Source: Fusobacterium massiliense (GTDB lineage: Bacteria; Fusobacteriota; Fusobacteriia; Fusobacteriales; Fusobacteriaceae). From it: a stretch of 64,000 bases of DNA. Below are positions 38,857 through 44,931 of this stretch, piece by piece; position 1 is the first letter of the stretch, and each line of letters opens with the position of its first letter. A program made the position numbers and the translations under genes. The stretch is from positions 1-64,000 of the forward strand of contig NZ_LT608327.1 in the NCBI RefSeq assembly GCF_900095705.1, given 5' to 3'. A model generated the notes under the pieces. That model saw only the letters and a program-made list of their open reading frames with translations, had not been told where the DNA came from and did no database searches.

Positions 38857-38896
38857 AATTTTATATTAAATTTATACTTTTCTATATAATAAAAAG

Positions 38897-38972
38897 AGTC
38901 TCTTGACAGCCGTATGAGTTCTACGAGCTCAATAAACATAGGCTCTTCGAACTAATACGGACATCAGAGACT
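38897..38972 (-). repeat. hairpin repeat copy 17
   Basis: Full class I copy, minus orientation, 12 bases beyond the kdsD stop codon. Read on the minus strand its right arm is followed by CTTTTTATT, so it can serve as terminator of the kdsD operon. Confidence 0.92.
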
Positions 38973-38984
38973 AACCTTGTTATT

Positions 38985-41094: not shown

Positions 41095-41877
41095 CTACTC
41101 ATTAATATCAAATAATTTTGTTACATCATCTTGGTTAGTTATTTCATAATTAAATCTATTTGTTGTTTTTAGAAATTCATCATTTAAAGTTTCTCTTATG
41201 ATATTTGGATTATTGCTATCCTTACTAATATGAGCAAGATAAACTTTTTTTAATTTATCAGTGTACATCTCTTTTATAAATCTAGCACAATCATTATTAG
41301 ATAAATGACCATTTCTACTTTTTACTCTTGCTTTTAAATTCCATGGATAAGAACAATTCATAAGCATATTATAATCATAATTGCTTTCTATAACCATGGC
41401 ATCAACATCTTTAAAGTGTTCCCTAACAATATTATCTATATAACCGACATCAGTAGAAACTGCTATTTTCTGATTACTTTGATTTTCTAACCTAAATCCG
41501 ACAGTTCTTACTGCATCGTGCATAACATCAAAAGGAGTAATTTTTACTTTATTATCCAATATAAAATCTCCGTCAATAAAGTTTACTAAGTTTTTATTTA
41601 ACTGTCCTAATTTTAAAAGTCCAGCTTCATAACTTTCAGGAGTAATAAATAAAGGTATATCATATTTTCTAGCTATTATGCCAGCACCATTTATATGGTC
41701 ACTGTGTTCATGAGTTAATAAAATAGCAGATATATCTGAAAGTTTTTTACCAATTTGTTCTAATTTTTCTTCTGTTTTTTTACAACTAAATCCAGCATCT
41801 ATTAATAATTTATAGCCATCAATTTCAATAAAAGTTGAATTTCCAGCACTACCACTACCTAATACAGAAATTTTCAT
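41095..41877 (-). CDS. MBL-fold metallohydrolase, YycJ/WalJ type
   Basis: Predicted metal-dependent phosphodiesterase or nuclease in the cytosol. 260 residues with VLGSGSAGNSTFIEIDGYKLLIDAGFSC at the N terminus, the metal motif LTHEHSDHINGA near residue 55, D in SHDVGYID-like STDVGYIDNIV, and late metal ligands in NGHLSNNDCARFI and YLAHISKDSNN. This matches the YycJ group encoded beside WalRK in Firmicutes, but no walRK genes are here. Its ATG overlaps the SDR stop by four bases (ATGA). Confidence 0.88.
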   Translation of the reverse strand: MKISVLGSGSAGNSTFIEIDGYKLLIDAGFSCKKTEEKLEQIGKKLSDISAILLTHEHSDHINGAGIIARKYDIPLFITPESYEAGLLKLGQLNKNLVNFIDGDFILDNKVKITPFDVMHDAVRTVGFRLENQSNQKIAVSTDVGYIDNIVREHFKDVDAMVIESNYDYNMLMNCSYPWNLKARVKSRNGHLSNNDCARFIKEMYTDKLKKVYLAHISKDSNNPNIIRETLNDEFLKTTNRFNYEITNQDDVTKLFDINE

Positions 41878-42593
41878 TTTAAAATTTGTCCTTTCTTTTT
41901 AACCTTGTGTCTTTGTGGCTTTATTGTAACATTGCTAAAAACTATTTTGTCAATATTTTTTAGTATAAATTCTACTGTGTTTGCAATATCTTTAGGCTCA
42001 ATATAAGATTTTTCATCATCATCGTACTCAAAATAAGTATTATTTTCATAAAAGTTTGTTTTAGTTATATCAGGCTGAATATTTATAACTTTAACATCAT
42101 ACTTTCTAACTTCTTCAAATAAATTTTTAGAAAATTGACTAAGTCCTGCTTTTGTTGCAGAATAAACTGAAGCTAGTGGACTTTCTTTAACAGCTGTAAC
42201 AGAGGAAATATTAATGATAGTACCTTTTACTTCTTTCAAATTTCTTAAAAAATATTGAGAAATAATAAGAGGTGCTTGTAGATTAACACTTATCATATTC
42301 TTAATTTTTGATATATTCATTTCTTCGTGCAGACCAAAATATCCAATTCCAGCTGAATTTACAATAAGTGAAAAATTTATTTTTTTAAGTTGATGTAAAG
42401 TTTTTTCAAGTTGGTCTAACTTTACTAAATCTACTTCAACAGGAATAAAATTTTCATAATTTTCAAAAATTCTTTTTTTATTTTTTATAAAAGTTCTACC
42501 AAAGCCATATACAGTATAGTTCATTTCTAATAATTTTTTAGCTATTTCATAGCCTATACCCGATGTAGCTCCTGTAACTAAAGCAATATTCAT
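41874..42593 (-). CDS. short-chain dehydrogenase/reductase
   Basis: NAD(P)-dependent oxidoreductase of unknown substrate. 239 residues from ATG 42593: cofactor motif TGATSGIGYEIAK at the N terminus, NSAGIGYFG (NxAG), and catalytic Ser and YSATKAG (YxxxK) near residue 145. The frame opens 13 codons upstream inside a decayed hairpin repeat, but GGAG six bases before ATG 42593 and the motif position fix the start. First gene of the operon ending in kdsD. Confidence 0.9.
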   Translation of the reverse strand: MNIALVTGATSGIGYEIAKKLLEMNYTVYGFGRTFIKNKKRIFENYENFIPVEVDLVKLDQLEKTLHQLKKINFSLIVNSAGIGYFGLHEEMNISKIKNMISVNLQAPLIISQYFLRNLKEVKGTIINISSVTAVKESPLASVYSATKAGLSQFSKNLFEEVRKYDVKVINIQPDITKTNFYENNTYFEYDDDEKSYIEPKDIANTVEFILKNIDKIVFSNVTIKPQRHKVKKKGQILK

Positions 42594-42694: not shown

Positions 42695-44575
42695 TTACAT
42701 AAAAATTTTATTTTCATCTATATATTTTAAAAGTTCATCTTTTACGAATTTTAGCATATCATTTTTTTGATTATCTGAATAAGTGTAAACACCATTCACA
42801 CATTCAAAAGGATAATATAAAATCTCTGAGTCATTATTTTGACTTCGCATTTTTTTTAGATAATCTTTCGATGTTCTAAAGACTCCAATACTTATGTCAA
42901 TTATTTTATTTCTATCTATGTTATAAAATAAATATTCTATCAATTCCGAATAATTTTTTTCAAACTCATTGTAATAAATAATAGGGTCAATACAAATTCT
43001 AACACTCCAACCTTTACCTTGAAGTTTTTTAATAGCTTCAACTCTACTTTTTAAACTACCAGTATTCTTCTCACTTTGTTGAACAATATCTTTAGGTGAT
43101 AAAGTAAAGGCTAGTATAAAATTATCAACAGGTTCTAATTCTAAAAAGCTATCAATATTTCCTGACTTTGTTCTCATCTCTATTTTTAAATTTTGTTTAT
43201 CTTTAATGAAATGGTACCATTTTTTAGAAAAATTACAAATATTTTCTATTGCTAGTAAGTCTGTGTCATATGAAACACAAAGATAAAGAGAACCTAATTT
43301 TTCATACAAGCTAGTAACCTGCTCAAAAACATTTTCTATATCCACAAAAATAACTATATTTGCAGATGGGTAAACTCCTTGTAAATAGCAATACTCACAG
43401 TCATAAATACAGTTTATAATAGACGAAGTATAATAAAAGTTATCATTATCAAAATTTTCACAGACCTTAGCTCCGGCATAAATCATATTGTCTTTATTTG
43501 AGGCTAATATTAAATTTTGACTTAGTTTTTGTAAACAGAAATCTTGATTATTACTAGAAAAAACTTCCTTATAATTTTCTATAACTATTATTTTAGCATT
43601 TTCAAACTTACTTAGTATATCCTTAGTATTTTTATGTGACAATACTTTTCTTTCAACATAGATATGAGAAAATCTTCCCTGTAAAAATAATGTATTTTTA
43701 TTATTTTCTAATTCTGTTATTGATTCTTTTTTCTCAATATTATTATTTGTTTTAGCTAAACTTTTAATTTCTTCAAAGAATAACTTACCATCTTTTTTTG
43801 ATTTTACTTCAACTTTTGAGTATTTTTCTAAAAAATTTATATGATTATATTTTATCTTAAAATATTTTAAAATATTCAAAAGTTCATAAGTCATTGTATC
43901 ACTTAATTTCAAATTTTCTAATATTTTTTTTATCAAATCTTGTTCATCATTAGAAAAATTATTTTTATTTTCAAGTTGATAATTTAAAATTTTTAATAAA
44001 AAGTTATAAATATTACTATAAATTTTATTAAGTGAATTGTCATCTTCAAAATTTAAAATTTTTCTGTCTTTTGATAGTTCTTTTAATATATCAGAAACAA
44101 TTTTTAATGTTAGAATTTTATTTTTTTTAAAAAAAATGGAAGCAGTTTGGAAAAAACCATAGGCTTCCATATCTATGTATTCTACATTCTCAATACTTTT
44201 TTCAATAACTTTATCAAAAGTACTTATACTTCCCTCTATAAAGTTATGTTTGTAAGCTATTTCAGGATAATAATTTATTTCTGAATAAGCATTTTTAATT
44301 TTATTAGCAAGAATAATATCTCCTAGATTAGATTTTTCACTACAACTAGCAACAAAACCTATATTAACTACAAAATCTTTTTCTTCAATATTTAGATTAG
44401 ATACTAAATAAGTTAGAGCAACTGAAGATTTAATTCTCCCAGTTCCACTTATAATAAGTTTTACCTTATCATTTGAAAAAACTTGAAATTTAGTGTATTT
44501 ATTATCTTTTTTTAAATCAAATAATAATATTAAAGGCTTAGCTTCAATATATAATGCTGTTACTATATATAACAT
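42695..44575 (-). CDS. nucleosidase / spore-photoproduct-lyase-like radical SAM fusion
   Basis: 626 residues in two parts. Residues 1-165 form a purine-nucleoside phosphorylase/MTAN-type domain with the catalytic residues in place: E11 (ALYIEAKPL), E137 in the substrate motif DMEAYGF and D162 (IVSDIL); compare MTAN E12, MEAT and SD. A low-complexity helical linker (165-310) follows. The rest resembles spore photoproduct lyase: radical SAM cluster C389-x3-C393-x2-C396 in INCIYDCEYCYLQGVYPSANIVIFV, and barrel strands YLCVSYDTDLLAIE, IEMRTKSGNI, FILAFTLSP and VRICIDPIIYYNEF. A UV-lesion repair role is inferred for a non-sporulating host; the nucleosidase might remove 5'-deoxyadenosine or methylthioadenosine. 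Monocistronic by context. Confidence 0.82.
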   Translation of the reverse strand: MLYIVTALYIEAKPLILLFDLKKDNKYTKFQVFSNDKVKLIISGTGRIKSSVALTYLVSNLNIEEKDFVVNIGFVASCSEKSNLGDIILANKIKNAYSEINYYPEIAYKHNFIEGSISTFDKVIEKSIENVEYIDMEAYGFFQTASIFFKKNKILTLKIVSDILKELSKDRKILNFEDDNSLNKIYSNIYNFLLKILNYQLENKNNFSNDEQDLIKKILENLKLSDTMTYELLNILKYFKIKYNHINFLEKYSKVEVKSKKDGKLFFEEIKSLAKTNNNIEKKESITELENNKNTLFLQGRFSHIYVERKVLSHKNTKDILSKFENAKIIVIENYKEVFSSNNQDFCLQKLSQNLILASNKDNMIYAGAKVCENFDNDNFYYTSSIINCIYDCEYCYLQGVYPSANIVIFVDIENVFEQVTSLYEKLGSLYLCVSYDTDLLAIENICNFSKKWYHFIKDKQNLKIEMRTKSGNIDSFLELEPVDNFILAFTLSPKDIVQQSEKNTGSLKSRVEAIKKLQGKGWSVRICIDPIIYYNEFEKNYSELIEYLFYNIDRNKIIDISIGVFRTSKDYLKKMRSQNNDSEILYYPFECVNGVYTYSDNQKNDMLKFVKDELLKYIDENKIFM

Positions 44576-44636: not shown

Positions 44637-44687
44637 AGTCTCTGATGTTTATTGAGCTCGTAGAACTCATACGGCTATCAAGAGACT
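44637..44687 (+). repeat. hairpin repeat copy 19 (internal deletion)
   Basis: AGTCTCTGATGT joined to TTTATTGAGCTCGTAG and the full right arm; about 25 bases between two TGT triplets are missing, removing the inner left arm. Outer helix still pairs. Confidence 0.85.
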
Positions 44688-44831: not shown

Positions 44832-44850
44832 TAGTTGTGTAGTGAAAATT

Positions 44851-44926
44851 AGTCTCTGATGTCCGTATTAGTTCGAAGAGCCTGTGTTTACTGAGCTTGT
44901 AAAACTCATACGGCTATCAAGAGACT
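44851..44926 (+). repeat. hairpin repeat copy 20, tetR leader
   Basis: Full class I copy between the operators and the tetR gene, so it must be transcribed in the 5' leader of the efflux operon. It is open in the tetR frame and yields the false start MFTELVKLIRLSRDS. Confidence 0.92.
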
Positions 44927-44931
44927 CCATT

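Follow-up and report, generated by a model that had tools for sequence, protein, structure and literature searches.

Fusobacterium massiliense carries, in the window analysed here (the whole stretch of 64,000 nucleotides), a gene in which a nucleosidase-like half is fused to a radical SAM half resembling spore photoproduct lyase (SPL). In other genomes the two halves are mostly encoded by neighbouring genes, called the N and C genes below. Their association is near certain to be real and functional, because it combines adjacency in 80 of 80 loci with fusion in about five lineages. We propose, tentatively and with a little less than an even chance that the statement holds as a whole, that the protein represents, in fused form, a conserved radical SAM enzyme of two components, one of them a dedicated partner that hydrolyses 5'-deoxyadenosine. 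The gene, its parts and its downstream neighbour are located as follows.

42695..44575, minus strand: fused gene, 626 aa (nucleosidase-like half, helical domain, linker, SPL-like radical SAM half)
44066..44575, minus strand: MTAN/PNP-fold nucleosidase domain, residues 1-170 (E11, D135, E137, S161, D162), from AlphaFold2, Foldseek and conservation
43742..44053, minus strand: helical domain, residues about 175-278, a proposed docking domain
43673..43750, minus strand: linker region, residues 276-301, where most of the sequence lies that the congeners' separate genes do not have
42698..43672, minus strand: SPL-fold radical SAM domain, residues 302-626
43388..43411, minus strand: CxxxCxxC cluster motif C389/C393/C396 (conserved in 81/81), with Y395 and Y397
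43460..43462, minus strand: C372, a nearly invariant Cys (80/81) and candidate hydrogen donor
43268..43270, minus strand: Y436, aligned with the hydrogen-donor Cys of SPL (C141 Bs, C140 Gt)
41874..42593, minus strand: short-chain dehydrogenase encoded downstream, the module's third gene (67/81 loci)

The open reading frame of the fused gene is uninterrupted over its 626 codons. As read from the translation, it has no in-frame ATG between codons 228 and 365, and codon 365 falls inside the radical SAM domain. AlphaFold2 models were made for each half separately, from alignments of 60 (N) and 56 (C) sequences. In Foldseek, the N model (residues 1-280; pLDDT 94.4) had MTANs as its best solved-structure matches (best E 8e-12, probability 1.00), and the C model (pLDDT 94.3) matched Geobacillus SPL structures best (TM 0.84, E 8e-22; next match at E 1e-5). 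The open frame, motifs and folds confirm the original prediction of a nucleosidase and an SPL-like radical SAM protein in one 626-residue chain. The residues that it named are all present (E11, M136-E137-A138, S161-D162 and C389-x3-C393-x2-C396), leaving both catalytic motif sets intact in one protein of a non-spore-forming lineage. Its domain limits, residues 1-165 and 310-626, captured the two enzyme domains but omitted the third, helical one, for which no known family was found. Its author knew of no characterised protein with this domain order, and our search of literature available without subscription found neither such a fusion nor such an operon described. A dispersed intergenic repeat with the core GATAGCCGTATGAGTTCTACGAGCTCAATAAACAT occurs at 44637-44687, 38891-38974 and 44849-44927 of the window, one copy sitting just upstream of the fused gene; the genome holds 35 copies at three or fewer mismatches, and the reversed control gave none.

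Searching genome contigs with the full-length fused protein alone returned no match, and an alignment of the SPL-like half was needed. Scanning GTDB contigs with that alignment gave 422 confirmed matches; the conservation figures reported here come from the best 80 of these loci and describe the core of the family. The 80 loci belong mostly to Clostridiaceae and Lachnospiraceae, with a few from Fusobacteriaceae and others; the paired genes occur in dozens of anaerobes from the gut and the environment. The N gene lies immediately upstream of the C gene throughout, save in F. mortiferum (L038), where it is found one gene upstream, and the two genes usually overlap or abut; at L070 the contig ends within the N gene, and at L074 the two genes are fused. 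Next downstream comes a short-chain dehydrogenase gene in 66 of the 80 loci, and with the window in 67 of 81. In a sample of 391 Clostridia, the C half was present in 53, and an N partner was detected in 51 of these (E ≤ 1e-8); the remaining two carry degenerate N genes. It was this class-wide sample that brought the degenerate partners to light. Counting strong matches, 19 of 98 Fusobacteriota carry the C half.

The weaker matches in Fusobacteriota belong to a second SPL-like radical SAM family (L029-L034, e.g. L029:7575-8585, whose protein scored 78 bits against Pfam SPL), which is encoded immediately 5' of a gene for DNA polymerase III delta (holA-like), has no nucleosidase partner and is also devoid of the SPL donor Cys (motif GIVNDSL). 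Between the nucleosidase and SPL-like genes of the F. mortiferum group stands a gene with a SUFU (Suppressor of fused) domain of the bacterial kind (L024:9398-10054; Pfam PF05076, 100.6 bits). A stand-alone nucleosidase-like protein of 207 aa akin to the N half (L160:2281-2901; E 9e-22) has no helical extension, and its genome (G143) gave no SPL-like partner when searched for one. At three loci (L143 in G060, L150 in G128, and L069, one of the 80) an intact SPL-like gene stands beside an N gene split into two or three frames, several in L069; these are pseudogenes or sequencing errors.

The N terminus of the window protein scored 13.7 bits against Pfam PNP_UDP_1 (cut-off 25.1), and its orthologues scored 31-48 bits. 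Scores for the N half were far below the cut-offs of the MTAN equivalog NF004079 (21 bits against 169) and of futalosine hydrolase TIGR03664 (20.9 bits against 124.7). MTAN-type sites comprise a catalytic Glu, a ribose-binding Glu in the MEx motif and a catalytic Asp in the SD motif, and we take the catalytic residues of the fused protein to correspond to E12, E174 and D197 of E. coli MTAN. E11, D135 and E137 are invariant in 79 of 79 main-set sequences and D162 is found in 76, so nucleosidase catalysis appears to be under selection.

We propose that the SPL-fold half would cleave SAM to a 5'-deoxyadenosyl radical, that this radical would abstract hydrogen from a substrate, probably nucleoside- or nucleic-acid-like, and that hydrogen would be re-donated via C372 (or Y436) in place of the SPL Cys. 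The helical domain would dock the N half to the radical SAM half, the MTAN-fold domain would hydrolyse the inhibitory 5'-deoxyadenosine freed at turnover, and the adjacent short-chain dehydrogenase probably handles the product or a precursor. It has been reported that 5'-deoxyadenosine inhibits radical SAM enzymes and that a nucleosidase removes it (PMC6079011). Clearance of 5'-deoxyadenosine at its source had already been suggested for this protein, and we regard it as the most economical role; it goes further than the association and the intact motifs, which are what our data support. Several points count against clearance. Regeneration of part of the SAM is reported for SPL itself (PMC3742179), and the Tyr residues of this regeneration relay (Y395, Y397) are conserved in the fused protein. 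A housekeeping MTAN is already present, so that a dedicated nucleosidase is not obviously needed. Moreover, the stretch from the conserved GD strand to the MEG motif is shorter in the N domain than in MTAN, and the substrate of the N domain may therefore differ.

Five genomes from three lineages (G012/G071 of the Fusobacteriaceae; G200; G317/G496 of the Clostridia) have kept an N gene that lost E11, DME and SD. These genes retain the YPD loop, and the helical domain is clear in four of them, with a weak remnant in L158. The radical SAM half of the same genomes keeps CxxxCxxC, C372, Y436 and K470, and one of the five (L157) still has the dehydrogenase. Loss of either active site in orthologues had been named in advance as evidence against a joint function; the nucleosidase site, though not the radical site, was indeed lost in these three lineages. 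The five genomes thus suggest that the nucleosidase is usual but dispensable and that the radical reaction can go on without it. A housekeeping MTAN was found in the F. massiliense genome and in 93 of 98 Fusobacteriota, a count to which the three clostridial site-less genomes are external. If this enzyme can take over, loss of the site would be expected of a nucleosidase that clears a by-product, and less expected of an obligate biosynthetic step. Site loss therefore speaks more for local clearance of 5'-deoxyadenosine (or for docking) than for an obligate step in a pathway.

Such a step is nevertheless a serious alternative, though we consider it unlikely. The nucleosidase would hydrolyse a modified nucleoside, either the substrate or the product of the SPL-like enzyme, and a third step would fall to the dehydrogenase, as with futalosine hydrolase and MqnE/MqnC or QueK and QueL, in salvage or biosynthesis. 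A conserved dehydrogenase as third gene, futalosine hydrolase as the best score for some orthologues and a nucleosidase domain that is unlike MTAN around the conserved YPD loop are all consistent with this alternative; the three lineages that lost the nucleosidase site while keeping the radical enzyme, at L157 together with the dehydrogenase, argue against it.

The site-less lineages also bear on the possibility, which we regard as improbable, that the N half serves its partner chiefly through structure or substrate binding, with nucleosidase activity secondary or absent. Retention of the YPD loop and helical domain without catalytic residues suggests that the partner has a second, structural role, and loss of the site with the rest of N kept would also fit a purely structural partner, a further point against clearance. 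However, selection on catalysis, as judged from the three residues invariant in the main set, is at odds with a partner of this kind. These lineages are natural mutants for the role of each half.

Residues 304-566 scored 68.7 bits against Pfam SPL (PF20903; cut-off 27), and the fused protein scored 82.1 bits against the SPL equivalog TIGR04070, the cut-off of which is 400. True SPLs in the same hosts score 448-549 bits; they are present in 8 of 16 host genomes tested, and seven of the eight were extracted for alignment. The CxxxCxxC motif and Y395 are invariant (81/81), and Y397 is found in 77 of 81 sequences, with Phe in the rest. In all aligned members, about 10 residues of the C-terminal GQFGYG/GPYG segment, which contacts the DNA lesion in SPL, are missing. 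The hydrogen donor of SPL is C141 (Bs) or C140 (Gt) (PMC3742179), and in clostridial SPL it is another Cys, C74 of C. acetobutylicum (PMC5368176). A check for the donor Cys, as the original prediction had advised, revealed Tyr at the C141/C140 position (Y436; Tyr in 80 of 81, Phe in one). No Cys lies exactly at the C74 position; C372, conserved in 80 of 81, is two residues away and plausibly represents a relocated hydrogen donor. In the canonical SPLs found here, C74 presumably corresponds to the Cys within FQSCKPSA or variants of this motif. The canonical clostridial SPLs (L116-L123) mostly have FQSCKPSA, with Ala at the C141 position, a pattern that fits the C74 donor being general in that group.

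By the tests available, the radical half of the fused protein appears not to be a spore photoproduct lyase, given its score, the replacement of the donor Cys by Tyr, the missing C-terminal segment and the true SPL in half of the hosts tested. The designation 'SPL-like' holds for the fold and chemistry class and, with Tyr in place of the donor Cys, fails for spore photoproduct repair: the family is similar enough to receive the SPL label, but the evidence says that the label is wrong. It is very improbable that the protein is a divergent SPL, or a related enzyme that repairs DNA photoproducts, to which a nucleosidase has been added as an accessory. The SPL fold, the conserved Tyr relay residues and the vicinity of C372 to the clostridial donor would agree with such an enzyme; besides the four points just given, its occurrence in non-spore-formers and the upstream regions disagree. 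In 78 of these regions no exact LexA-type box (GAACNNNNGTTC) was found, and one-mismatch sites were fewer than in shuffles, on which grounds SOS-regulated DNA repair was rejected. Phage defence was rejected as well, as PADLOC returned no match.

The two halves are encoded separately in two congeners (F. gastrosuis and a MAG), as they are in other Fusobacteriaceae. In the two congeners the N and C genes overlap by about 30 nt; relative to these overlapping genes, F. massiliense has about 68 nt extra, which supply the linker and unite the frames. Because of this added sequence, one miscalled base cannot yield the fusion. Fused ORFs of 617-675 aa are also present in L074, L144, L145, L146, L147 and L148; all keep the catalytic residues of both halves, except that some are without S161 and one is without C528. 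On a maximum-likelihood tree built from the C half, five changes are needed to explain the fused state, four of them forced by well-supported branches, with the deep placement of L144-L148 uncertain owing to long branches. We conclude that the fusion is real and secondary to separate genes, and the tree suggests that it arose independently in about five lineages. The original prediction had foreseen that the halves might be separate in most relatives with a sequencing error here; the former is the case, and there is no sign of the latter. That two ordinary genes were joined by a fault of assembly or sequencing, as the separate genes of both congeners and most relatives might suggest, is hardly credible and was rejected in view of the 68 nt or so of added linker, which is not one indel, the independent fusions in other genomes and a genome of 6 contigs that is 99.99% complete.

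Radical SAM enzymes in general face inhibition by 5'-deoxyadenosine; if our proposal is true, a nucleosidase fusion that evolved repeatedly would be nature's answer to it and could serve as a tool. The evidence against the SPL label points to a substrate common to gut Clostridia and Fusobacteria. Nucleosidase, SPL-fold radical SAM enzyme and dehydrogenase may together form a new three-gene system of anaerobic bacteria that subjects a nucleoside or nucleic acid to a radical reaction of a new kind, a candidate that we put somewhat below an even chance when it includes a new helical domain, a relocated Cys donor and in-cis removal of 5'-deoxyadenosine in the fused enzyme.

In QueK-QueL queuosine salvage of C. 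difficile, a nucleosidase gene likewise stands next to a radical SAM gene in an anaerobe. However, QueK belongs to another nucleosidase family (IPR023186), whereas the N half is PNP_UDP_1-like, and no queuine lyase was among the sequence or fold matches. The C. difficile operon also has a QrtT transporter gene and a preQ1 riboswitch, neither of which recurs at the loci studied here: no transporter (ECF) was a recurrent neighbour, and no riboswitch, preQ1 or other, was found in 13 Fusobacteriota loci and the window or in 13 other loci. Riboswitch control was rejected on this basis. QueK-QueL salvage was rejected for its different nucleosidase family, for the outcome of the sequence and fold searches and for the gene neighbourhood.

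With MTAN (Pfs) and futalosine hydrolase of the PNP_UDP_1 superfamily, the N half has its fold and catalytic residues in common. It differs in its equivalog scores, the additional C-terminal helical domain, the surroundings of the YPD loop, its constant position beside or fused to an SPL-like enzyme in the loci examined, and the loss of its catalytic site in some lineages. The C half and SPL (SplB; 4FHC/4FHG of Geobacillus) are alike in fold, in the CxxxCxxC motif with the YCY relay tyrosines and in the Lys at the K174 (Gt) position. Identity, in contrast, is 17%, and the C half has Tyr for the donor Cys, has another Cys (C372) that is nearly invariant, is without the C-terminal segment, is obligately paired with a nucleosidase-fold protein and coexists with true SPL. 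The folds and the chemistry class are known and the helical domain is unassigned to a family; the nearly obligate combination is new.
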